DNA of 64,000 nt, taken from positions 1-64,000 of the forward strand of contig JAEUJN010000013.1 in the NCBI GenBank assembly GCA_016794595.1, given 5' to 3'. The notes under the pieces are model-generated. The model made no database searches and had not been told where the DNA came from. It saw only the letters and a program-made list of their open reading frames with translations. Of this stretch, positions 43,951 through 58,455 are shown piece after piece; within the stretch, counting starts at the first letter, position 1, and each line of letters starts with the position of its first letter. The position numbers and the translations under genes are program-made. The DNA comes from Kineosporiaceae bacterium. GTDB lineage: Bacteria > Actinomycetota > Actinomycetes > Actinomycetales > Kineosporiaceae.

Positions 43951-44379
43951 TCAGCGCCCCGGAGGCTGCGTCGGCTCGGGTACCGGCCGATCCGCGCACT
44001 CCCGGCAGGTACCGAACACCTCGACCACGTGATCGACGTCGGTGAAGCCGTGGTCGGCGGCGACCTCCTCGGCCCAGCGCTCGACGGCTGCGGAGTCGAC
44101 CTCCACTGTGCGCCGGCAGTGCCGGCAGGTGAGGTGGTGGTGGTGACCTGTGCTGCACCGCCGGTAGAGCACCTCGCCGTCGATGCCGCGGACGACGTCC
44201 AGCACCCCGTCGTCGGCCAGCGCCTGCAGGGTGCGGTACACGGTCGCCAGCCCCACGCCGTCCCCGCTGTCGCGCAACCGCGCGTGCAGCTGCTGAGCGC
44301 TGATGAAGCCGGCGCTGGCCTGCAGCGCAGTCCAGACCGCCGAGCGCTGCCGGGTCTGGGGACGTCTAGTGGTCGTCAT
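43951..44379 (-). CDS. zur: Zinc-responsive Fur-family repressor (Zur)
   Basis: 142 aa. The winged helix is QTRQRSAVWTALQAS...GLATVYRTLQALADDG. The metal sites are CSTGHHHHLTCRHC near residues 75-88 and CREC near 125, the structural zinc Cys4. HHHH and the pairing with znuABC mark it as Zur rather than Fur. It is the last gene of the znuA-znuC-znuB-zur operon; its ATG lies 14 nt inside znuB. It should bind the palindrome overlapping the znuA start, so it represses its own operon when zinc is sufficient. Confidence 0.93.
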   Translation of the reverse strand: MTTTRRPQTRQRSAVWTALQASAGFISAQQLHARLRDSGDGVGLATVYRTLQALADDGVLDVVRGIDGEVLYRRCSTGHHHHLTCRHCRRTVEVDSAAVERWAEEVAADHGFTDVDHVVEVFGTCRECADRPVPEPTQPPGR

Positions 44380-45319
44380 AGTGCGCCCCGTGGATCGCGT
44401 GGCGGTGGCCGTCGTGTTCGTAGTCCACGTGATCGCCGTGCTCGATCGCCGGATGCCCGCACCCGGGCCCGTGCTCGTGAGTGTGCTCGGCGAGATCGTG
44501 CGCTCGCCGGGAGTGCACCGCCCGGCGCGCGGCCGTCGTCAGGGTGGCCACCAGGAACACGGCGATCGCCAGCAGCACGATGGTCCCCCCGGAGGGGGTG
44601 TTGAGGTAGTAGGAGGCGGTGGTGCCCCCGAGCCCGACGCCCACGCCCACCGCGACCGCGATCAGCAGGCTGCTGCGGAAGCTGGTGGCGACCACCTGCG
44701 CCACGGCATTGGGCAGGATCATCAGGGCGCTGATCAGCAGCAGGCCGACGACCCGCATCGAGATCACGACAGTGGCCGCGGTCAGGGCGGCCAACAACAG
44801 GTTCAGGCCCATGACGTTCATGCCGCTGGCCCGCGCGAACTCCTCGTCGTTGCTCACCGCGAACAGCCGCGGGGCCAGGCCGACGGCCACCGCCAGGACC
44901 GCGACCGAGAGTGCGGCGAACACGGCCAGATCCTCACCAGAGGTGGTGGTGATCGCGCCGAAGAGGTACGCGGTCAGGTTGGCCGGTCGGTCGGCGGACA
45001 GCCCGATCAGCACCACCCCGCCGGCGATCCCCCCGTAGAACATCACGGCCAGGGCGACATCGGCGCTGGCCCGGCCCCGGGCCCGGATCAGCTCGATCGC
45101 CCCGGCGCCGAGCACGGCACACACCAGGGCGGCACCCACCGGCGCCGTGCCGGTCAGGAAGCCCAGGGCCACCCCGGTGAGTGCCACGTGACCGATGCCG
45201 TCCCCGATCAGCGCCAGCCGGCGCTGCACCAGGTAGATGCCCACCATCGGGGCGGTCAGCCCGACCATCAGTGAGGCCACCAACGCCCTGATCATGAAGT
45301 CATACTGCAGCAGCTCCAC
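44366..45319 (-). CDS. znuB: Zinc ABC transporter permease ZnuB, with histidine-rich C-terminal tail
   Basis: 317 aa ABC-3 family permease with about eight helices (MVGIYLVQRRLALIGDGIGH at the start; ALMILPNAVAQ late). The last 45 or so residues are soluble and contain about 13 histidines (EHTHEHGPGCGHP; HDGHRHAIHGAHYDDH), plus one Cys, an unusual metal-binding tail for a permease, possibly a cytoplasmic zinc buffer. ATG 45319 lies 13 nt after znuC. It overlaps zur by 14 nt. Together with ZnuA and ZnuC it imports zinc. Confidence 0.93.
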   Translation of the reverse strand: MELLQYDFMIRALVASLMVGLTAPMVGIYLVQRRLALIGDGIGHVALTGVALGFLTGTAPVGAALVCAVLGAGAIELIRARGRASADVALAVMFYGGIAGGVVLIGLSADRPANLTAYLFGAITTTSGEDLAVFAALSVAVLAVAVGLAPRLFAVSNDEEFARASGMNVMGLNLLLAALTAATVVISMRVVGLLLISALMILPNAVAQVVATSFRSSLLIAVAVGVGVGLGGTTASYYLNTPSGGTIVLLAIAVFLVATLTTAARRAVHSRRAHDLAEHTHEHGPGCGHPAIEHGDHVDYEHDGHRHAIHGAHYDDH

Positions 45320-45332
45320 GTCCTCGTGCCCC

Positions 45333-46145
45333 TCAGCCCGTCGATCCGAGGCCGCCGAGCCAGCCCGGCACGCTGTGGGCGTGGTGAGCGTCGCTGCCGC
45401 CGGTGAGTGCGGCCCCGAAGGCCGCCGCGGCGGGCAGATCGGCCTCGACCCGGCCGTCCCGCATCATCACCGCCCGGGTCAGCACGCTGCGCATCGGGGC
45501 GATCTCATGGGTCACCACGACCAGGGTGAGCCCTTGCGCGACAAGGTTCTCCAGGGTGTTCACCAGCCGGGCCTGGTTCTCGGCGTCGACCCCGGCGGTC
45601 GGCTCGTCCATGATCAGCATCTCCGGGCCGCAGGCGAGGGCCCGGGCGATCAGCACCCGGCGTTGCTGGCCCCCGGACAGGTTGGCCACCGGAACCCGCT
45701 GCCGCGCAGTGAGTCCCACGAGTTCGATCGCCTCGCCGACAGCTGCCCGGTCGGCGGCCGTCATCCGGCTGAACCACCGCTTGCGCGGCAATCGGCCGGA
45801 GGCGACCACCTCGGCCACGGTGGAGGGGATGGCGCCGACCACGGTGTGCCGCTGGGGCACGTAACCGATACGCCAGCGCTCGCGCAGGTGGTCGAGCGGG
45901 GTGCCGAACACGCGGACCTGACCGCTCATCACCGTGGCCAGCCCGAGGATCCCGCGGACCACCGTGGTCTTGCCCGACCCGTTGGGTCCGACCAGGGCGA
46001 CCACCTCGCCGCGGTCGACCCTCAGGTCGACATCGTGGACGACGGGCCGCTCGGCGTAGCCGATCGAGGCGTGAACCAGCTCCACCACGGCGGCCCGGTC
46101 GTCGGGCGGCCGTGGTGGCCTGCTGGTCGAGTCGGTCCCGGTCAC
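45333..46145 (-). CDS. znuC: Zinc ABC transporter ATP-binding protein ZnuC
   Basis: 270 aa ATPase. Walker A is GPNGSGKTT (about 53-61), Q-loop YVPQRH, signature LSGGQQRR, Walker B MLIMDEP, D-loop and H-loop VVTHE. The C-terminus (SDAHHAHSVPGW) has a short His cluster. It powers zinc import by ZnuB. The GTG start lies 6 nt after the znuA stop. All catalytic motifs are intact. Confidence 0.94.
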   Translation of the reverse strand: MTGTDSTSRPPRPPDDRAAVVELVHASIGYAERPVVHDVDLRVDRGEVVALVGPNGSGKTTVVRGILGLATVMSGQVRVFGTPLDHLRERWRIGYVPQRHTVVGAIPSTVAEVVASGRLPRKRWFSRMTAADRAAVGEAIELVGLTARQRVPVANLSGGQQRRVLIARALACGPEMLIMDEPTAGVDAENQARLVNTLENLVAQGLTLVVVTHEIAPMRSVLTRAVMMRDGRVEADLPAAAAFGAALTGGSDAHHAHSVPGWLGGLGSTG

Positions 46146-46151
46146 CGTGGG

Positions 46152-47099
46152 TCAGCTGCACCCTTGGCCGGTACGCAGGGTCCCGAGGTTGGATCGCATG
46201 ACCCCAAAGTAGTCCGAGGAGGCATCGGCCAGGCCCTCCAGCGGGTCGAGCAGGGCTGAGGCAGCGCCCGTGCCGCGGGCCACCGTCTCGGCCACCGCCG
46301 GGCTCACCAGCGGTTCGTGATAGATGGTCGTGACCTTGTTGGCCTTCACGAAGTCGGTGATCCGGGCGAGGGTGCCGGCGTCGGGCTCGGCGTCCGGGGA
46401 CAGGCCGGCGATGCCGAGCTGCCTCAGGTCGTACCGCTGGGCCAGGTACCCGAAGGCCTCGTGGCTGGTGACCAGCGTCCGGCTGGTGCACGTGCCCAGG
46501 CCGGCCCGCAGCTCGGCGTCCAGCGCGGTCAGGTCCGCGCGCAGCGCGGTCGCGTTCGCGGTGAAGGTCGCTGCCCCCTGGGGGTCCACCGAGGCCAGCC
46601 GGGCCGCGACGGCGTCGGCGACGTCGGCCAGCCGCGTGGGATCCAGCCAGAAGTGCGGGTCGATCCCGGTGTGCCCGTCCTCGTCCTCTGCCTTCAGGTC
46701 CAGCCGCGCGGACGGGGCGACGTCGAGGACGGCGTCGGCCGGCAGGCCGTCGGCGGCATCGTCGACGGCCGGCTGGAACCCGGACAACTGGATGACCAGG
46801 GAGGAGTCGGTGATCTGGGCAACGTCCTTGGGCGTCAGCTCGAGGTCGTGCGGCTCGGCGCCGGGTGGGGTCAGGTTGACCACGGTTCCGCGCGGCCCGA
46901 GCAGCCGCTGGGTGACGTACTGCAGGGGATAGAAGCCGGTGACCACGGTGAGCCCGGGCTGATCCCCGCTGCTGCGGCTCTCGCCGCCGGGAGCCGTGCC
47001 GGTCGTGCCGGACGGGGGTGGGGAGGATGAACCGCAGGCTGACAGCGGCAGGGCTGCGGCGATGACCAGGGCGACGGCCGCCGTCCACTTTCCAAGCAT
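46152..47099 (-). CDS. znuA: Zinc ABC transporter substrate-binding lipoprotein ZnuA
   Basis: Cluster A-I metal-binding protein of 315 aa. The signal peptide ends in the lipobox LSAC. GAEPHDLELTPKDVAQI supplies the first metal His, HTGIDPHFWLDP the second, TSHEAFGYLAQRYDL the third, and an Asp near the C-terminus is expected. It captures extracellular zinc. The ATG at 47099 lies 7 nt after a -10-like GAGAAT and inside a perfect Zur box, so the message is probably leaderless; an ATG 9 nt upstream (47108) is the alternative. It heads znuA-znuC-znuB-zur. Confidence 0.93.
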   Translation of the reverse strand: MLGKWTAAVALVIAAALPLSACGSSSPPPSGTTGTAPGGESRSSGDQPGLTVVTGFYPLQYVTQRLLGPRGTVVNLTPPGAEPHDLELTPKDVAQITDSSLVIQLSGFQPAVDDAADGLPADAVLDVAPSARLDLKAEDEDGHTGIDPHFWLDPTRLADVADAVAARLASVDPQGAATFTANATALRADLTALDAELRAGLGTCTSRTLVTSHEAFGYLAQRYDLRQLGIAGLSPDAEPDAGTLARITDFVKANKVTTIYHEPLVSPAVAETVARGTGAASALLDPLEGLADASSDYFGVMRSNLGTLRTGQGCS

Positions 47100-47135
47100 G
47101 AGAATCATTCTCAGTTGTATGAGGGCTGCTGTCAA
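47099..47135 (-). promoter_or_regulatory. znuA promoter with perfect Zur box
   Basis: The palindrome TGAGAATCATTCTCA (47099-47113) is a 7-1-7 Zur/Fur-type site. On the minus strand, TTGACA (47135-47130), 17 nt, GAGAAT (47112-47107), 7 nt, then ATG 47099. Bound Zur would cover the -10, transcript start and start codon. Confidence 0.85.
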
Positions 47136-47189
47136 ACGGCGCTGTCGACCGCCGGGCACGGCCACGCAGCCTCCCCGCCAGGCCGGTCC

Positions 47190-47244
47190 GGGACCAGTAC
47201 GGGACCGGTACGGGACCGATACGGGATCGGTGCGGGGCCGGTAC
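47190..47244. repeat. Five direct repeats of 11 bp between znuA and the next gene
   Basis: Consecutive units GGGACCAGTAC, GGGACCGGTAC, GGGACCGATAC, GGGATCGGTGC and GGGGCCGGTAC. The period is about one helical turn, so equivalent bases face the same side. Confidence 0.85.
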
Positions 47245-47260
47245 GGGGTACGCCGACAGG

Positions 47261-47266
47261 TAGCGT
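47261..47266 (+). promoter_or_regulatory. Leaderless -10 element (TAGCGT)
   Basis: TAGCGT lies 7 nt before GTG 47274, with no ribosome site between. Confidence 0.55.
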
Positions 47267-47273
47267 GGCCGGC

Positions 47274-47636
47274 GTGCTGGTGCTGACCCGCTACCTGGTG
47301 CCTCCGCAGGAGAGCGCCGAGTTCCACGCCCTCGCCGTCCGGGCGCTCGAGGTTCTGACCGAACGCCTCGGATGCACAGGTGGCCGTCTGGGACGTACCG
47401 TCGACGACCCGAGCCTGTGGACCATCACCACGTCCTGGCGCTCGGTGGGGGACTACCGGCGGGCCCTCTCGCACGTCGAGGTCAAGTTGCACGCCGTCCC
47501 CGTGATGTACCGGGCCATCGACGAGCCGACCGCGTACGAGGACCTGCTGACCTGGGATCCGGCAACCGGGTTCACCGGGGCGGCCAGTGACCGGGCGCCG
47601 GATGCCGACACCACCGGCCCCGGCCACGAGCGGTAG
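47274..47636 (+). CDS. Antibiotic biosynthesis monooxygenase (ABM) fold protein
   Basis: 120 aa dimeric alpha/beta-barrel type protein: a beta strand (VLTRYLVP), helix (ESAEFHALAVRALEVLTERL), strands (CTGGRLGRTVDDPSLWTITT) and S-W-R-S-x-x-DYRRAL, followed by a disordered tail. Family members range from quinol monooxygenases to enzymes of unknown role; the substrate is not known. It starts 7 nt after a -10 box (leaderless). Five 11-bp repeats lie just upstream, shared with the divergent znuA. glyS follows 72 nt later. Confidence 0.7.
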   Translation: MLVLTRYLVPPQESAEFHALAVRALEVLTERLGCTGGRLGRTVDDPSLWTITTSWRSVGDYRRALSHVEVKLHAVPVMYRAIDEPTAYEDLLTWDPATGFTGAASDRAPDADTTGPGHER

Positions 47637-49114: not shown

Positions 49115-49762
49115 GTGCGGGTGCGCGCCGTCGGCGTCGACGGCGGGGCACCGCGCGAGTTCGCCCACCGCCTTCTGGTCGAGTTCGCCGTAGACGCAAG
49201 GGGCCGGGACAGCAGCGGGGAGCCGAGACTCGACCACGACTGCGCCCGGTGCGGGTCCACTGACCACGGGCGCCCTCGGCTGGTCGGCACGGCCGGCGAC
49301 CGGTGGCCGCCGGTGAGCCTGAGCCGCGCGCCGGGGCTGATCGTGCTCGCCCTCGGCGCCCCGGATCGACCCGGCGGTCGGGTCGGGGTCGACGTCGAGC
49401 CGGACGGCGCGGCGCGCTTCGCCTCGTTCGCGGCCTTCGCGGACGTCGTGTTGCACCCCGGGGAGTGGCCACCGGCTGGATCCTGGAACGCGCAGGAGTG
49501 CACCCGCACCTGGGTGCGCAAGGAGGCGGTGCTCAAGGCACTGGGCACGGGGTTGCACCTCGATCCGCGCCACCTGCGGCTCAGCGGGCCGGGTGAGGCG
49601 CCCGCCGTCCTCGAGCTCGATGACCCGACGGGTGCGCCCGAATCACCTGTCGCACAAGGGGTCCGGGTGATCGATCTCGACGTGGCACCGGGATTCACCG
49701 CAGCCCTGGCCGTGGTCGAGGCGAGCGCGGACGGCAGCCTCCGAGCGTTCTCAGCTCGGTAG
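49115..49762 (+). CDS. 4'-phosphopantetheinyl transferase (Sfp type)
   Basis: 215 aa. Transfers phosphopantetheine from CoA to the active serine of carrier domains. The Mg2+ site is GVDVEPDG near residue 92, and the second motif is WVRKEAVLKALG near residue 135. A CARCGSTDHGRP segment resembles a zinc knuckle and is typical of actinobacterial members. It starts with GTG 12 nt after glyS and overlaps the M1 gene tail-to-tail by 12 nt. The obvious client is the carrier domain of the Pls/PosA-like synthetase 5 kb away. Confidence 0.9.
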   Translation: MRVRAVGVDGGAPREFAHRLLVEFAVDARGRDSSGEPRLDHDCARCGSTDHGRPRLVGTAGDRWPPVSLSRAPGLIVLALGAPDRPGGRVGVDVEPDGAARFASFAAFADVVLHPGEWPPAGSWNAQECTRTWVRKEAVLKALGTGLHLDPRHLRLSGPGEAPAVLELDDPTGAPESPVAQGVRVIDLDVAPGFTAALAVVEASADGSLRAFSAR

Positions 49763-51067
49763 CTCGGGCAGCTTGCGCTGGTTCAGCCAGCGGTCGGCCA
49801 CCTCGCTCGGGGTGCTGCCCTTGGCGGCCCGGTCCAGGTGCTTCAGGAACCCGGCAGTGTCGACCAGTCCGTACCGCTTGGCCGCAGTCCAGGAGCGCAG
49901 GGCGTCGAAGAAGTCCCGCTCGCCCATCGCCAGGCGCAGTGCGTGCAGGGTGAGCGCGCCGCGCTTGTAGACCCGATCGTCGAACATCAACTTGGGGCCG
50001 GGGTCGGCCAGCAGCAGGTCCTGCGGCAGCTTTGCCAACCGCGCGTGGTGGTTTCGCGCGTGTTTGTCGGTGCTGGGCCCGCCGCTGGCCTGCGACCACA
50101 GCCACTCGCTGTAGCAGGCGAAACCCTCGTGCAGCCAGATGTCGCGCCAGTGCGCGGCGGTCAGGGAATTGCCGAACCACTGGTGGGCCAGCTCGTGCGC
50201 GACCAACCGCTCGTTCTCCCACCCGGCGACGGCGTGGTTGGCACCGAAGCTCGACATCCCCTGCGCCTCCAGCGGGATCTCCAGCTCGTCCTCGGTGATC
50301 ACCGCCCGGTAGCGGCCGAAGGGGTAGGGGCCGAACAGGTCGGCGAACGTGGTGAGCATCTGGGCCTGGCGCGCGAACGCCGTCCCGGAGCCGACCTTCA
50401 CCCGGCGCGGGTGCACGATCTCGACCGGGATCTTGGCCCCGGCCGCCTTGACCGGGCCGAGTTCGGTCACCGTGGAGCGCCCGATCTGGACGCACACCAG
50501 GTAGGTCGAGGTCGGCTCGGCCTGCTCGTAGACCCAGGTGACGGATCCCGCGCGCTTGCGCCGGGCCACCAGGTCGCCGTTGCCGACCACGTGATACGCC
50601 TCGGCCGTGGTCAGCGACACCCGGTAGCTCGCCTTGTCGTCCGCCCGGTCGTTGCACGGGAACCAGGACGGCGCGCCGTAGGGCTGGGAGCCGACCAGGA
50701 CTCCATCGGTCAGCTCCTCCCACCCGGCGGCGCCGTGCAGCCCGGGAGAGGGCTTGGGCTTGCCGGAGTAGTCGATCCGAACCTCGAACTCCGAACCCGC
50801 CGGTCGCTGCTCGCGCAGCCGGATCACCAGGTGTCCGCCGCGATGAGTGTGGCGCGCAGCGGGTTTGCCGTTGACCAACACCTTGCCGGCGTGCAGGCCG
50901 ATCAGGTCGACGGCCAGTTCGCGTAGCGGTTCGAGCGCGCGCACGCTCAGGGTCGCGGTGCCGGAGAGGTGATTGGTGCCGACCTTGTAGACCAGTTCCA
51001 GGTCGTACCGGCGGACGGCGTAGCGCGTGTCCCCGTGCCCGGGGACGTACTCCCGCGACCGGTTCAC
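49751..51067 (-). CDS. M1-family zinc metallopeptidase (aminopeptidase N-like)
   Basis: 438 aa. The zinc site is HELAHQWFG (His291, His295; catalytic Glu292) with Glu314 in WLHEGF, the HEXXH-x18-E pattern. The exopeptidase loop reads EAQGMSS instead of GAMEN. No signal peptide is evident and the C-terminal domain is short, so it is a compact, probably cytosolic or membrane-associated M1 enzyme. The GTG start overlaps the second GTPase (GTGA). Its place in the Pls locus suggests it may trim or degrade the polymer or its precursor; that is inference. Confidence 0.93.
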   Translation of the reverse strand: MNRSREYVPGHGDTRYAVRRYDLELVYKVGTNHLSGTATLSVRALEPLRELAVDLIGLHAGKVLVNGKPAARHTHRGGHLVIRLREQRPAGSEFEVRIDYSGKPKPSPGLHGAAGWEELTDGVLVGSQPYGAPSWFPCNDRADDKASYRVSLTTAEAYHVVGNGDLVARRKRAGSVTWVYEQAEPTSTYLVCVQIGRSTVTELGPVKAAGAKIPVEIVHPRRVKVGSGTAFARQAQMLTTFADLFGPYPFGRYRAVITEDELEIPLEAQGMSSFGANHAVAGWENERLVAHELAHQWFGNSLTAAHWRDIWLHEGFACYSEWLWSQASGGPSTDKHARNHHARLAKLPQDLLLADPGPKLMFDDRVYKRGALTLHALRLAMGERDFFDALRSWTAAKRYGLVDTAGFLKHLDRAAKGSTPSEVADRWLNQRKLPELPS

Positions 51068-52683
51068 AGCCGCGCCAGCGCTCGGCGCAACTCACTCAGC
51101 TCGCCCAGTTCGCTGGTGACGGTCAGCACGACGTCCTCGTCGATCACCCCGGCCACGTGCTCGGACAGGGATGCTCTCGCCTGGCGCCCCCGCCGGGCGC
51201 CGCCCACGGCGGTCAGGCGCCGCCCGATCGTGGCCAGCAGCGGGCCCAGGATCAGCCCGCCCAGGGCCAGCAGGCTCTGCACCGGGAAGCCGCGCCACTG
51301 CACGCGTGGCGGCGGGGGGAACTGGAACCAGGCCAGTCCCCACAGTGCCAGCACCCAGATCAGCCCGACGATCAGCCCCGCGGCGACGACCCACTGCACG
51401 GTTCCCAGCACGGCCCACCAGCGTGGAGGCTCGAGGTGCAGGTCGGTGCGGCCGGCAGCCTCGTCCAGGGACTCGGGCAGCTCGTCCCGGGTGCTCTCGA
51501 TCACCGACTCCAGGCGCCGCCGGGCGGTCTCGGGCAGCCCTCGGGTGACGTCCTGGCTCAAGTGGCGCATCGCCTCGTCGAGCCGGGCCACGGCCAGCGG
51601 GTCGGCCGAGATCGCCGTCCGGCGCACGGCCACCCCGTCCTTGATCCCCCCGGTCTCGATCGGGCGACGGGTTCCCAACCCGAGGCGCGCCAACGGATCC
51701 GGCCTGGTCTTGCGGATCCAGCGCAGCAACGGCCAGCCGACGGCGAGCGACCCGCGGTGCCGGTAGGACCCGGCCACGGCTGCCTCCAGCTGGCTGCCGC
51801 CGGCGGCCTCGGTGGCAGCGATCACCACCTGTTCGCGGGCCGAGGCGCTGACCGTGCGGTCGGCGAGCCCGGACAGCGAGGCAGTCAGATCCGTTGCCAG
51901 CCAGTCGAGATCGGCATCGATGCGGGTGACGATGGCCCGCCGTTCGGCCACCCGGGCGGCCAGCTCGCGGCGCAGCGCGTCGACCCCCTCGCCGGTGACC
52001 GCCGAGGTGGGAAGCACCCGGACCTCGCCCAGGCCGTCCTCGGCGAGCAGGGCACCGAGGTGGGCGATGGTGCCGGCCCGCGCCTCGGCGTCCAGCCGAT
52101 CGATCTGGTTGAGCAGCACCATGGTGACGGCGCCGTGACGGCCGAACTGGCGCAGGTAGCCCTCGTGCAGCGCGGCGTCGGCGTACTTCTGTGGGTCGAC
52201 CACCCAGCCGAACACGTCGACCACCGCGACCAGCCGGTCGACCTCGGCTCGGTGCGCGGTCACCTTCGAGTCGTGGTCGGGCAGGTCCAGCAGCACCAGG
52301 CCCTCGAGCGAGCCACCCTCGTGACGTTGCCGGTTGGGGATCTCGAGCCAGTCCAGCAGGGGGCCCGCGCCGTCCCCGTACACCGCGGCCAGCGGCGAGG
52401 ACGTCGTGGGGCGGCGGATGCCGGTGGTCGCCCACTCGGTGCCGGTGATCGCGTTGAACAGGGAGGACTTGCCGCTGCCGGTGGCGCCGGCCAGGGCGAC
52501 CACGGTGTGGCTGGTGCCGTGCCCGAGCCGGGCGGTGGCGGTCGCCAGGGTGCTCTGGATCCGGGCGAGCACCGGCTCGTCCAGCCGGCCCTGGCCGAGG
52601 TCGGCGATCCGCGAGAGCGCCCTCAACCGCGCCCGCAGGCCATCGACCTCGGCCGTGGGTGAGGTGGTCGGATCCGGGCTCAC
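51064..52683 (-). CDS. Dynamin-like GTPase with two C-terminal membrane helices
   Basis: 539 aa. G1 is GATGSGKSS (66-74), G3 DLPDHDS, G4 NQID, with the GTPase domain about 60-270. A helical stalk (about 270-400) and two helices (about 405-465: VQWVVAAGLIVGLIWVLALW, then SLLALGGLILGPLLATI) follow, and a tail. It is predicted to associate with membranes and form a heteromeric pair with the upstream GTPase. The GTG start overlaps its stop by 4 nt. Similar pairs (DynA/DynB) act in Streptomyces sporulation septa; this pair's role is unknown. Confidence 0.88.
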   Translation of the reverse strand: MSPDPTTSPTAEVDGLRARLRALSRIADLGQGRLDEPVLARIQSTLATATARLGHGTSHTVVALAGATGSGKSSLFNAITGTEWATTGIRRPTTSSPLAAVYGDGAGPLLDWLEIPNRQRHEGGSLEGLVLLDLPDHDSKVTAHRAEVDRLVAVVDVFGWVVDPQKYADAALHEGYLRQFGRHGAVTMVLLNQIDRLDAEARAGTIAHLGALLAEDGLGEVRVLPTSAVTGEGVDALRRELAARVAERRAIVTRIDADLDWLATDLTASLSGLADRTVSASAREQVVIAATEAAGGSQLEAAVAGSYRHRGSLAVGWPLLRWIRKTRPDPLARLGLGTRRPIETGGIKDGVAVRRTAISADPLAVARLDEAMRHLSQDVTRGLPETARRRLESVIESTRDELPESLDEAAGRTDLHLEPPRWWAVLGTVQWVVAAGLIVGLIWVLALWGLAWFQFPPPPRVQWRGFPVQSLLALGGLILGPLLATIGRRLTAVGGARRGRQARASLSEHVAGVIDEDVVLTVTSELGELSELRRALARL

Positions 52684-54383
52684 AGTGCACCTCCGCGGGA
52701 CAGGTTCTCGGCCAGCGCCCGCAGGCGCTCCGGCGCCCGGGCGTCGATCCCGAGCCGGGCGACGGCCGCCCGATACCGCTCGGCCTCCTCGTCATACACC
52801 GCGGCCACGCGTGAGCCGAGGGCGTCCCGTGCCCTGGACGCCAGCGTGCGGATCGCCTGGTCGCCGAGCAACGCCTCGAGCAGGGTGTGCCCGACCGCGC
52901 TGGCCCCGCCGGCGACAGCGGCCTCGGCGCCGGTCAGCCCCCCGGTGTGGGCGAAGACCACCATCATCACCACGGCAGCCACGCCGTTGACCCCGAGCGA
53001 GACCACGCGCGCGGTCGACTTGCGGTCACCGCCAACACTGCGCACCAGCTCGAGCAGCTCGCCCTGCCAGGCGCGCACCGCGGCGGCCGCCCGGACGTCG
53101 AGCTCGACCGACGAGCGGGCCAGCGCCCCCGAGGTGTCGGCGGCGATCAGGCGTTCCCCGCCCGGGCGCGAGCGCCAGCGGGAGGCGACATCGGCCGCGG
53201 CGGCGTCCCCCTGGGTGCGGATCAGGGTCTGGACGACGTTCTCGACCGCCTCGGTGAACTGGGCGTGGGTACGACGGCGTCCGGTGAGCACCCCGGCGAC
53301 CTGGTCGCGAAGCCTGCTCAGCCCCGTGCGCAGCTGCCGGAACAGCTCGCCGGTGCCCAGCAGTTCCTCCCAGCGCGCCAGCACCTCACCCCGCAGCAGC
53401 GTCCCGCTCTCCACCGCGGTGCGCACCGCGGTCTGGGCCTCGCCGTAGGCGGCCTCGACGTCCGAGAGCAGCCGGTCGCCGACCTCCACCTGGGTGGCCA
53501 CCGCCTCTGCCACGGCGTGGGTGCGCGCGGCCAGATCGCCCAGCGAGCCCTGCAACGAGCGGCGGACGGCCGCGGCCCTGGCCTCGGTGTCGGCGCCGAG
53601 ACGGTCCAGCCAGCCGCGCAGGTCGGCCACCGCCCCGGCCGGCAGCCGGCCCTCGACCAACTCCTGCTCGATCACGGTCACCACGGGAGTGTCGTGCAGC
53701 CCCTCCTCGGTGAGCATCTGGGCCAGGTGGGCCGACAGCGCCTCGGCGCCCTCGGGTGGGGTCCGGTTCAGCACGACCACCAGGGGAGTGCCGCGGCGCT
53801 GGGCCGAGCGCAAGAAGTCCCACGGGACGGCGTCGGCGTAGCGGGCAGCAGTGGTCACGAAGATCCACAGGTCGGCTGCCGCGAGCAGGTCGGCCGCCAG
53901 TTCACGGTTGGCCACCGACACCGAGTCGATGTCGGGGCTGTCCAGCAGCGCGATGCCGTCCGGCAGGGCCGTGCTGGCCACCAGGCGTACCTCGCGCTGG
54001 CTCCTGGCCTCTCCCTCGAACACCCGGGCCAGGTTGGGCAGCACGTGGCCGCCCTGGAACCAGGCGGCGTCGTCCGGGTCGTGCACCAGCACCGGCGCCA
54101 TGGTGGTCGGTCTCAGGTACCCGGGCCGGGTCACGTCGGTGCCCAGCACGCTGTTGGTGAGAAGCGACTTGCCCGATCCGGTGGACCCGCCGATCACCAC
54201 CAGGGCGGGTGCCTCGAGGTTGCCCAGCCGTGGCAGAACGTGGTCGTCGAGCTCACGAACCATGGCCGCGGCGTCCCGGGCGGCCTCGGCGGCGCCGGGC
54301 ATGCCCGGTTCGAGGCGCAGGGCGCTCAACTCGGCGCGCAGGTCGGTGGCGGTCCGGTGCAGGCCGGCGATGTCGGTGCTCAT
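52680..54383 (-). CDS. Dynamin-like GTPase (first of a tandem pair)
   Basis: 567 aa. G1 is GGSTGSGKS (65-73), switch TTMAPVL, G3 LLDSPDIDS, G4-like LNRTPP, then a long helical stalk (about 260-450) and one or two membrane helices near residues 470-510 (VVSLGVNGVAAVVMMVVFAH). It stays at the membrane and probably assembles with its partner, whose GTG overlaps the stop. ATG 54383; the gap to the Pls gene upstream is 211 nt. Both GTPases carry intact G1 and G3 motifs, so both should bind GTP. Confidence 0.88.
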   Translation of the reverse strand: MSTDIAGLHRTATDLRAELSALRLEPGMPGAAEAARDAAAMVRELDDHVLPRLGNLEAPALVVIGGSTGSGKSLLTNSVLGTDVTRPGYLRPTTMAPVLVHDPDDAAWFQGGHVLPNLARVFEGEARSQREVRLVASTALPDGIALLDSPDIDSVSVANRELAADLLAAADLWIFVTTAARYADAVPWDFLRSAQRRGTPLVVVLNRTPPEGAEALSAHLAQMLTEEGLHDTPVVTVIEQELVEGRLPAGAVADLRGWLDRLGADTEARAAAVRRSLQGSLGDLAARTHAVAEAVATQVEVGDRLLSDVEAAYGEAQTAVRTAVESGTLLRGEVLARWEELLGTGELFRQLRTGLSRLRDQVAGVLTGRRRTHAQFTEAVENVVQTLIRTQGDAAAADVASRWRSRPGGERLIAADTSGALARSSVELDVRAAAAVRAWQGELLELVRSVGGDRKSTARVVSLGVNGVAAVVMMVVFAHTGGLTGAEAAVAGGASAVGHTLLEALLGDQAIRTLASRARDALGSRVAAVYDEEAERYRAAVARLGIDARAPERLRALAENLSRGGAL

Positions 54384-54594
54384 GGCAGCCTCGACGCTAT
54401 CCGAACCCCCCGCGACACGGCGGGAGATCCCTCATCGACCGGCGTCGCGGACGAAGTTCCACCCCGTGGCCGGCAGCCGGTCCGCGGTGAGGAAGGTGAG
54501 CTGGTCGTTCCCGGCCCGGCTGAGCAGCATGCGGGCGAACGGATCGCGATGGGGCAGAGCGATCTCGGCGAGAGCCTGACCAAGCCCAGTCCGC
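54384..54594 (-). other. Gap holding a possible gene remnant
   Basis: On the minus strand, about 54432-54594 encodes a coding-like stretch with no start codon (LPHRDPFARMLLSRAGNDQL, then TGWNFVRDAGR and a stop). It is out of frame with the Pls gene that ends at 54595. It could be the end of a deleted gene or chance. A promoter for the GTPases may also lie here; none was identified. Confidence 0.3.
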
Positions 54595-57500
54595 TCAGCT
54601 CACCCACGGGCCGATCGGGTTGCCGATCCAGCGGGTCTTGTCGGGCACGGACTCCCCACGCATCACCAGTGACACCGGCCCCACCGTCGCGTGCCGGCCG
54701 ATCACCGCCGCCGGGAGCACCACCCCGTTCGGGCCGAGCGTCGACCCCGCGCGCAGGGTCACCGTGTCCAGGCTGAGCACCCGGTCGTGGAACAGGTGGG
54801 TCTGCACGACGCAGCCCCGGTTGACCGTGGCGCCGTCCCGAAGGTCGATCAGGTCGGGCTCGGGCAGCCAGTAGCTCTCACACCACACTCCCCGCCCGAT
54901 CCGCGCGCCCATCGTGCGCAACCACAGGTTCAGGACGGCGGTGCCGCCGGCCGCGCGCGCGAACCACGGGGCCGCGATCACCTCGACGAAGGTGTCGGCC
55001 AGCTCGTTGCGCCACACGAAGCTGCTCCACAGCGGATGGTCGCGACGCGAGACCCGGCCCACGAGAGCCCATTTGGCGATCGTGGCGACGGTGGCCGCGA
55101 TTGCTCCGGCGGCCATCAGCACCAGCCCACCGGCGGCTGCCGCGAGCCACCACCCGAACCTGTCGGCCACGGCCACCAGGACGGCGACCACGGCGACCAC
55201 CAGCGTGGCGTGCAGCCACAGCGGCACCACCCGGCCGGCCTCGACCAGAGCCCGGGCCACCCGGAGCCGGGCGGGCGGATGGAAGGTGCGCGCGCCGTCC
55301 GTGCGGGCGGTGCTGCGTCGCAGCAGGGCGGGCGGGCTGCCGATCCACGAGGTGCCGGCCTTGGCCGCGGTGCGCTGTGGTGCGGCCGAGAGCACTGCCA
55401 CCAGGCCGTGTTTGGGTACCTTGCGCCCGGGGGCGGCCATGCCGGAGTTGCCGACGAAGGCGTGCTTGCCGACCTTGACCGGCTCGATGCGCAACCAGCC
55501 GCCGCCGAGTTCGTAGCCCCCGATCAGGGTGTCGTCGGCCAGGAACGCGCCCTCGGCCACGCTGGTCAGCCGGGGGATCATCAGCACGGTGGAGGCCTCG
55601 ACGTCCGGGCCGATGCGGGCGCCGAGCGCGCGCAGCCAGGCCGGGGTCAGCGTGCTGGAGTAGAGCGGGAACAGCCAGGTCCTGGCCTCATCGAGTACCC
55701 GCATCGTCGACCACGCCTGCCAGGCCGCGCGGCCCTGGACCGGGTAGGCGCCGGGACGGAGCCCCAGGCCGAGCAGCCGGGTCAGCAGCCAGACCGCCAC
55801 AGCCAGGACCAGGACGGCCACCACGGAGGCCACCGGCAGGCGCAGCAGGGCGATCCGCGCGGCCTCACCCACGGACTGCCCGGCGCTCAGGGCGGGCCAC
55901 GCGGTGGCCGCACCGGCCAGCACGGCGAGCACCGGCAAGGCCGAGATCAGGACCGACATCGCCGCATAGGCCACCAGCCAGACGGGCCGGTTGGGGGGCC
56001 GGGTGTCGTGGTAGGGCCCGCGAGCGGGCCCGATCGGCTGCGCCGGGGCCCCCGACCAGAACTCACCGGCCGGCACCGCCCCGAAGACGGCCGAGCCGGC
56101 GGCGATCTCGGCCCCTGCGCCGATGTGCGCGCCGGGCGCCAGGGTGCTGCGCGCCCCGACCCGGGCACGCTTGCCCACGTGCACCCTCCCCAGGTGCAGC
56201 CGCGCGCCGTCCAGCCAGTAGCCCGCCAGGTCGACCTCGGGTTCGATCGCGCAGCCCGCCCCCAAGGTCATCAGCCCGGTCACCGGGGGGATCGAGTGCA
56301 GGTCGACGTCCCGGCCGACCCGGGCACCGAGCAGCCGCGCATACCAGCGCATGAGCAGGGCGCCCGACAGGTTGCCCGCGCCCAGCTCGTCCACCAGCCG
56401 CTCGGCGAGCCAGACCCGCAGGTGCACCCGGCCGCCGCGCGGGTAACTGCCCGGACCGATGCCGGCCAGCACCACCCGGGCCCCGAGCGCGGCGAGCAGC
56501 ACCCGCCCCGGCGGGAACAGCAGCAGCGCCCAGCCCAGGCCGATCGGCCACCAGGGCGCGGTGGGCAGCCAGGCCAGTGACGCCGGGCCGAGCTGCGCGG
56601 CCAACGTCGTCCCGGAGGCGATCCAGACCAGCCAGCGCAGCCCGGCCAGGGTGCGCAGCGGCCAGGTCCCCAGCACCTGGCCGACCTGGGTCTTCAGCGG
56701 GACGGGTGGGACGTCGGCGTTGAGCCGCGACGTCGGGGCGGTCATGGCGTCCAGGTGACGCGCCAGGGCGGCCAGGGTCGGGTGGTCGTAGATGTCCGCG
56801 ACCGTGATCTCGGGATGGGTGGTGCGCAGCAGCGAGACCATCTGGGCCGCGGTCAGGCTGCCCCCGCCGAGATCGAAGAAGTCGACGTCCACGTCGGTGA
56901 TCCGGGCGCCGAGCACCTCGCGCCACAGCTCGGCGACGCGGGCCTGGGTGCCGCGCAGGCCGAGAGCGGGGCCCTCGTCGGCGCCGGCCAGAGGCCAGGG
57001 CAGGGCGTCCCGGTCGATCTTGCCGCTGGTGCGGGTCGGCAGGTCGTCGACCACTGCCAGCCGTGGCACGAGGGCGGCGGGCATCGCGGCGCGCAGGGTG
57101 GCCGTGGCCGCAGCCAGGTCGAAGGCCGTCCCGTCCTCGGCCGTCGAGGCGTCCAGCGTCAGGTACCCGACCAGGATCGCGTTGCCGGACGCCGTCCGGC
57201 GCACCGCCGCAGCAGCCGCGCTCACCCCCGGCAGCGCCAGCAGTGCGCTGTCGATCTCGCCCAGCTCGATCCGGCGGCCGCCGACCTTGACCTGCTCGTC
57301 GGCCCGGCCGCCGAACAGCAGCCCGGTGCCGTCGAAGCGCACGATGTCGCCGCTGCGGTAGGCGCGCTGCCAGCCCAGGCTGGGCATCGGCGCGTACTTC
57401 TCGGCATCCTTGACCGGATCGAGGTAACGGGCCAGACCCACCCCGCCGATGATCAGCTCACCGCTCTCGCCCTCGGGCACCGGGGTGCCGTCGGGGCCGA

Positions 57501-58455
57501 CCACGGCCAGGTCCCACCCGTCCAGCGGCAGTCCGATCCTGACCGGGGGCTCGCCGGTCAGTCGCGCGGCGCAGGCGACCACCGTGGCCTCGGTGGGGCC
57601 GTAGGTGTTCCACACCTCCCGCCGCGGCGTGGCCAGGCGGGCGGCCAGTTCGGGTGGGCAGGCCTCACCGCCCAGGATCAGCAGCCGTACCCGGTCCAGG
57701 GCGTCCGCCGGCCACAGGGCGACCAGGGTCGGCACGGTGGAGACCACCGTGACGGAGTTGGCGGTCAGCCACGGCCCGAGGTCCATGCCGCTGCGCACCA
57801 GGGATCGGGGCGCCGGTACCAGGGCGGCGCCGTGGCGCCAGGCCAGCCACATCTCCTCGCAGGAGGCGTCGAACGCCACCGACAGGCCGGCCATCACCCG
57901 GTCGTCCGGGCCGATGGGCGCATCGGTCAGGAACAGCCGCGACTCGGCGTCCACGAAGGCGGCCGCGCTGCGATGGCTGACCGCGACCCCCTTGGGGGTT
58001 CCGGTCGACCCCGAGGTGAAGATCACCCAGGCGTCGTCGTCCGGGGTCGGCCCGGCGTCGATCGGGGCGGCGTCCAGGCGCCGAGGGGTGATCACCAGGT
58101 CGTTACCGATCACCGCGGCCACGTCCGCCTCGCCGAACACGGTCCGCGCGCGCTCGTCCGGATCGTCGGCGTCCACCGGCACGTACGCCGCGCCGGCCAG
58201 CAGCACACCCATGATCGCCACGTACAGGTCGATCGTGCCCGAGGCGATCCGGACGCCGACCCGGTCGCCCCGCCCGACGCCGAACTCGGCCAGCTCGGTG
58301 GCCACCTGCTCGGCCTGCTCGGCGAACTCGGCGTAGGTGAGCACCAGGGCACCGTTGTCCAGCGCGGGTTCGTCGGGCACCTCGGCCACCGTGCGCCGGG
58401 AGATGTCCACCAGGGTGCGCGGCGCGGGGGCATGGTCGGCACGGCGCAGGGACAT
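54595..58455 (-). CDS. Pls/PosA-type membrane non-ribosomal peptide synthetase
   Basis: 1286 aa. An adenylation domain (about 10-490) has FTSGSTGTPKG, NTYGPTEATV, YRSGDIV and the catalytic Lys479 (TSGKIDRD). The carrier domain has the phosphopantetheine Ser533 (DLGGGS). Three pairs of membrane helices alternate with three tandem hexapeptide-repeat domains (starting near 680, 980 and 1200). There is no condensation or thioesterase domain of the usual kind. This is the architecture of epsilon-poly-lysine synthetase. The pocket residues read D-A-E-S-I-G-T-V-V-K, close to lysine-type codes. ATG 58455 follows CATACT by 7 nt. Confidence 0.9.
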   Translation of the reverse strand: MSLRRADHAPAPRTLVDISRRTVAEVPDEPALDNGALVLTYAEFAEQAEQVATELAEFGVGRGDRVGVRIASGTIDLYVAIMGVLLAGAAYVPVDADDPDERARTVFGEADVAAVIGNDLVITPRRLDAAPIDAGPTPDDDAWVIFTSGSTGTPKGVAVSHRSAAAFVDAESRLFLTDAPIGPDDRVMAGLSVAFDASCEEMWLAWRHGAALVPAPRSLVRSGMDLGPWLTANSVTVVSTVPTLVALWPADALDRVRLLILGGEACPPELAARLATPRREVWNTYGPTEATVVACAARLTGEPPVRIGLPLDGWDLAVVGPDGTPVPEGESGELIIGGVGLARYLDPVKDAEKYAPMPSLGWQRAYRSGDIVRFDGTGLLFGGRADEQVKVGGRRIELGEIDSALLALPGVSAAAAAVRRTASGNAILVGYLTLDASTAEDGTAFDLAAATATLRAAMPAALVPRLAVVDDLPTRTSGKIDRDALPWPLAGADEGPALGLRGTQARVAELWREVLGARITDVDVDFFDLGGGSLTAAQMVSLLRTTHPEITVADIYDHPTLAALARHLDAMTAPTSRLNADVPPVPLKTQVGQVLGTWPLRTLAGLRWLVWIASGTTLAAQLGPASLAWLPTAPWWPIGLGWALLLFPPGRVLLAALGARVVLAGIGPGSYPRGGRVHLRVWLAERLVDELGAGNLSGALLMRWYARLLGARVGRDVDLHSIPPVTGLMTLGAGCAIEPEVDLAGYWLDGARLHLGRVHVGKRARVGARSTLAPGAHIGAGAEIAAGSAVFGAVPAGEFWSGAPAQPIGPARGPYHDTRPPNRPVWLVAYAAMSVLISALPVLAVLAGAATAWPALSAGQSVGEAARIALLRLPVASVVAVLVLAVAVWLLTRLLGLGLRPGAYPVQGRAAWQAWSTMRVLDEARTWLFPLYSSTLTPAWLRALGARIGPDVEASTVLMIPRLTSVAEGAFLADDTLIGGYELGGGWLRIEPVKVGKHAFVGNSGMAAPGRKVPKHGLVAVLSAAPQRTAAKAGTSWIGSPPALLRRSTARTDGARTFHPPARLRVARALVEAGRVVPLWLHATLVVAVVAVLVAVADRFGWWLAAAAGGLVLMAAGAIAATVATIAKWALVGRVSRRDHPLWSSFVWRNELADTFVEVIAAPWFARAAGGTAVLNLWLRTMGARIGRGVWCESYWLPEPDLIDLRDGATVNRGCVVQTHLFHDRVLSLDTVTLRAGSTLGPNGVVLPAAVIGRHATVGPVSLVMRGESVPDKTRWIGNPIGPWVS

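Follow-up and report, generated by a model that had tools for sequence, protein, structure and literature searches.

The window, that is, the whole stretch of 64,000 nucleotides that was analysed, carries between glyS and dusB-dgt-dnaG a block of five genes, whose positions in a preliminary description of this DNA were confirmed by domain searches and by reading of the sequence. The block consists of the following features.

49115-49762, plus strand: Sfp-type PPTase (Pfam ACPS, 41.7 bits).
49751-51067, minus strand: M1 peptidase of the PldII subfamily, 438 aa (Peptidase_M1, 87 bits; HEXXH-X18-E).
51064-51067, minus strand: GTGA overlap of the GTPase2 stop and the pldII start, read from the sequence.
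51064-52683, minus strand: GTPase2, a DynB-like dynamin, 539 aa (AF2 model; hydropathy).
52680-52683, minus strand: GTGA overlap of the GTPase1 stop and the GTPase2 start, read from the sequence.
52680-54383, minus strand: GTPase1, a DynA-like dynamin, 567 aa (Dynamin_N, 28.1 bits; AF2 model).
54435-54593, minus strand: relic-like open reading frame, 53 codons to the stop, with coding-like base use.
54595-58455, minus strand: Pls/PosA-type synthetase (TIGR02353), 1286 aa, with the ATG start at 58455.

The order of transcription on the minus strand is the synthetase gene (pls), a gap of 211 bp, GTPase1, GTPase2, and the M1 peptidase gene (pldII), while the PPTase gene is convergent to the peptidase gene and their ends overlap by 12 bp. 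The two GTGA overlaps claimed earlier were both read directly and measure 4 bp each; translational coupling at these joints and co-transcription across the 211-bp gap are presumed. The relic-like reading frame inside this gap has no Pfam match and no relative among the fetched loci, and it may be a scar. A promoter and terminator scan of the locus was empty, the sigma-70 models used being uninformative for an actinobacterial host. Just beyond glyS, and thus near the zinc peptidase, lie zur, znuB, znuC, and znuA (window positions 43951-47627); this proximity is probably a coincidence, because at another locus (L224) the znu genes also stand near glyS with no adjoining pls.

The synthetase is composed of an adenylation (A) domain, a carrier domain (PCP) with the motif LGGGSL, and a membrane C-terminal domain, the last of which matches TIGR02353 with 692 bits against a curated cut-off of 423 (residues 646-1334 of the long reading frame) and places the protein in the Pls/PosA family. 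Simple hydropathy gives five hydrophobic segments in the C-terminal part; members of the family have three soluble domains surrounded by six transmembrane helices. Among solved structures the closest relative is the A domain of Streptomyces albulus Pls (7wew, 628 bits), and alignment to this structure gives the 10-residue specificity code DAESIGTVVK at the pocket positions, which includes the Asp/Glu pair and the lysine-type pocket (DA.E...) and recurs unchanged in 93 of the 96 Pls proteins that were aligned. At the second position of the code alanine goes with lysine, methionine with ornithine, phenylalanine with PDAP/PDAB, and glycine with beta-lysine enzymes (PMC10522769). The likely substrate is lysine, because the A domain matches that of S. 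albulus Pls and its code has alanine at this position, and the product in this organism would be epsilon-poly-lysine. The same family also contains enzymes for other diamino-acid polymers (PMC10522769), and a polymer of beta-lysine, ornithine, or diaminobutyrate has to be considered instead; however, the alanine of the window code agrees with the lysine enzymes and with none of the methionine, phenylalanine, or glycine types, which makes such a product improbable. PosA and its relatives, the cationic homopoly-amino-acid synthetases, share the succession of A, carrier, and TIGR02353 membrane domains, but PosA differs in having methionine at the second position and in forming a single-gene operon. 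Divergent Pls-type synthetases were also met in L099 (genome G010) and L100 (G067), where the code is DFEYNGTVTK, with phenylalanine at the second position as in diaminopropionate/diaminobutyrate enzymes, and where pldII is absent and a gene for a multi-pass membrane protein adjoins the synthetase. A further synthetase of the Pls type (L084, G065; code DAESIGTIIK) likewise stands without pldII and is followed by a membrane protein of the same family as in L099 and L100.

A glutamate in the GXMEN motif is a general feature of M1 exopeptidases. The window peptidase has an intact M1 zinc site (HELAHQW...E), while in its subfamily the GXMEN glutamate is replaced, the window protein having GMS. Of the earlier name "zinc exopeptidase" the zinc peptidase part therefore stands, and the exopeptidase part is unsafe because this glutamate is missing from the subfamily. 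PldII has been described as endo-type and as translationally coupled to pls (PMC9223678). The window peptidase is 43-57% identical to the M1 peptidase encoded immediately after pls in about 180 actinobacterial loci, and these loci bear out the earlier claim that a carrier-dependent synthetase of the poly-lysine type shares its locus with a degrading peptidase. The pls gene is immediately followed by pldII in the same orientation in 18 of 18 loci with a close M1 relative from the order and class samples, in 75 of the 78 callable named loci among the matches listed, and in 86 of the 90 loci of Nocardioidaceae type, these three sets overlapping somewhat; in many of these loci the two genes overlap by 4 bp. 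In the window pldII does not follow pls directly and overlaps GTPase2 instead, and for this reason the enzyme is identified as PldII-type from its sequence. Pls-linked M1 proteins of Streptomyces fall in the same tree as the window peptidase.

From S. albulus and Corynebacterium an operon of pls and pldII is known in the literature (PMC8117764; PMC9223678), and the window locus resembles it in the two enzymes, their order and strand, the A-domain code, and the M1 zinc site, but differs in that a dynamin pair of 3.3 kb and the 211-bp gap separate the genes and a PPTase follows. Other insertions at the joint of pls and pldII were seen in three Nocardioidaceae-type genomes (L323-L325 in G703, G674, and G771), each with a gene for a secreted protein of about 220 aa on the opposite strand. 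The pair with a lysine-type code is also present in many mycobacteria (L117, L119, L120, L123, L131, L134-L137, L144, L167, and L174, a list which includes one likely mislabelled Bifidobacterium MAG), with recurring downstream genes (clusters c2 and c5). To our knowledge mycobacteria and many other genera with this pair are not recognized as producers of epsilon-poly-lysine.

The association of a PPTase with the synthetase locus, suggested at first from the window, holds in several lineages. A PPTase gene convergent to pldII was found in L080, L083, L085, L086, L090, L098, L118, L159, L163, L165, and L173, and named genera with this arrangement are Cellulomonas, Cellulosimicrobium, Mobilicoccus, and Humibacillus; PPTase similarity lies within the fetched flank in 23 of 90 further (Nocardioidaceae-type) loci. 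A PPTase gene next to pldII is a recurrent feature, but of a minority of lineages.

The two coupled GTPases had been called dynamin-like, and the folds of both models agree with this. GTPase1 is just above the Dynamin_N cut-off (28.1 bits) and has an intact P-loop (GSTGSGKS), while GTPase2 is below the threshold by sequence, and a sequence search of both against solved structures gave nothing useful. The fold search with the AlphaFold models (pLDDT 88 for GTPase1 and 92 for GTPase2) did match: GTPase1 to BDLP, the Cj-DLP pair, IniA, and Fzo1 (Z 21.7), and GTPase2 to BDLP, Cj-DLP, IniA, and Fzo1/mitofusin (Foldseek/VIA). Both proteins thus combine an intact P-loop with a dynamin fold, as in bacterial dynamin pairs, and hydropathy places two transmembrane segments close to the C-terminus of GTPase2 (432-450 and 466-484), which is a DynB feature (PMC8748795). 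The side-by-side genes, the dynamin fold in both products, and a second protein with two such segments are shared with Streptomyces DynA/DynB, Campylobacter Cj-DLP1/2, IniA, and BDLP. A defence system was considered and rejected, PADLOC giving only weak P-loop matches.

The preliminary description proposed to compare TIGR02353-type synthetase neighbourhoods across actinobacteria for co-occurrence of the GTPase pair. The survey covered 149 order-level and 395 class-level genomes, at least 80 named-genome loci among the matches listed, which are a sample, and 90 Nocardioidaceae-type loci, and the comparison came out negative: a GTPase pair between pls and pldII was present in none of the inspected loci other than that of the window, and there is no conserved co-occurrence at family, order, or class level. 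GTPase1 is present in 115 of the 149 order genomes and Pls in 43, with four genomes having Pls but no GTPase1. In the order sample the two are weakly and positively associated (39/43 versus 76/106, p = 0.017), which is probably phylogenetic, and in the class sample GTPase1 occurs in 36 of 94 pldII-positive and 106 of 301 pldII-negative genomes (p = 0.62). Genomes that lack the synthetase commonly carry the pair. The nearest other cases are an ssb-linked pair about 6 kb beyond pldII in G080 and, on a Mobilicoccus contig, a GTPase1 gene some 2 kb past pldII and the PPTase gene that accompanies it. A conserved linkage of pls and the GTPases was accordingly rejected on the order, class, named, and Nocardioidaceae-type surveys, and the pair is not part of the conserved pls-pldII set. 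In five genomes from several separate families (G011, G034, G060, G118, and G146) pls and a GTPase pair lie about 48-67 kb apart, which is closer than random expectation and perhaps reflects a shared chromosomal region.

Two forms of the GTPase pair were distinguished: one precedes ssb and ettA or cobalamin genes, in Streptomyces-type genomes too, and the second stands alone. On another contig (C57) the genome under study also carries an ssb-linked pair. The window GTPase1 groups in a clade of 26 proteins that are mostly of the stand-alone form (SH-aLRT 99), apart from the ssb-linked copy of its own genome, and is at most 52% identical to any protein in its tree, which holds no Streptomyces proteins; the GTPase2 tree leaves the origin of the pair open. 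The window pair is not a recent duplicate of the other pair of the genome, the two being 41-43% identical and in separate clades. Streptomyces-type pairs have ssb and/or ettA context in four inspected loci, whereas this context is absent from the window pair, which lies inside a biosynthetic operon. Two dynamin pairs flank ssb-ettA in L188 (G116), L189 (G130), and L213 (G144), a row of pair-ssb-ettA-pair that suggests an ancient tandem order as the possible source of stand-alone pairs.

The trees of Pls and of the M1 peptidase place both window proteins in a Nocardioidaceae-centred clade (support 100 and 99), apart from the pls-bearing members of their own family, and in the family relatives G015 and G135 (L225 and L231) dusB-dgt-dnaG lies beside or close to glyS and pls is missing from this place. 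Because of this grouping and of the relatives without pls here, pls and pldII probably entered the interval between glyS and dusB together, by horizontal transfer from a Nocardioidaceae-like donor. The reverse order of events, native GTPases with pls inserted around them, was rejected because L225 and L231 have no pair between glyS and dusB and the pairs of the relatives are located at ssb-ettA or alone. The window pair may have arrived with the pls-pldII block or later.

A misassembled or chimeric contig could also place a dynamin pair between two genes that are elsewhere adjacent, the genome being a draft of 123 contigs and the arrangement being found in it only. Nevertheless, the pair is located inside a contig of 72.8 kb, more than 50 kb from the left end and about 18 kb from the right end, its junction with pldII is an exact gene overlap of 4 bp, and base composition is continuous, which makes such an artefact very improbable.

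According to these data the locus is most probably a horizontally acquired operon of the epsilon-poly-lysine type in which a DynA/DynB-like pair of the stand-alone form has become lodged between pls and pldII; capture by a known operon is the most economical account. The chemistry of Pls and PldII is established knowledge. By analogy the synthetase would activate lysine and load it on its own carrier domain, primed by a PPTase, its membrane domain would join the lysines into a polycation, and the M1 peptidase would degrade the polymer and so protect the producer. A general actinobacterial membrane-remodelling pair would then have landed in this operon, with GTPase2 replacing pls as the upstream partner of pldII, and the GTPases presumably have no obligatory role in polymer synthesis.

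One observation speaks against capture without function: neither GTPase frame and neither GTGA overlap is damaged or shows decay, and the arrangement could therefore be under selection. The pair may instead have been recruited in this lineage as a dedicated part of the system, one that tethers, repairs, protects, or shapes the producer's membrane where the polymer is formed and that is expressed and translated together with the degrading enzyme. Bacterial dynamin pairs do tether and remodel membrane (PMC6104087), and here the pair lies on the same strand, embedded between the partner genes and overlapping pldII by GTGA, has intact GTPase motifs, and is additional to the ssb-linked one. Given the undamaged frames and joints and the presence of a second pair in the genome, a working role in self-protection is possible. 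However, the arrangement occurs in a single genome, with one genome representing the genus, and many pls genomes lack a close GTPase1, including most of the families f22 (which holds mycobacteria) and f19 (Micrococcaceae-like), and the dedicated role is therefore rather unlikely, the capture of a general pair being preferred. Of the joint function proposed initially, the part that concerns the synthetase and the peptidase, with the PPTase in several lineages, stands, while the GTPase pair is not conserved and its functional link is a possibility raised by one genome.

The means by which producers of epsilon-poly-lysine tolerate the membrane-active polymer that they make are understood only in part, with PldII as a presumed contributor; should the link prove functional, a membrane-remodelling pair before pldII would give a direct genetic handle on producer self-protection. 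Most of the gene set (pls, pldII, and the recurrent PPTase) is already known, and the insertion of the dynamin pair was seen in no other locus inspected. The pair of pls and pldII is near-invariant across Actinobacteria and seems to spread by horizontal transfer, in some cases together with a PPTase gene of its own. In four Streptomyces-type loci (L219-L222) the sole dynamin pair found per genome adjoins ssb and/or ettA, and if this pair is DynA/DynB, the sporulation dynamins are linked to the gene of a single-strand-binding protein.
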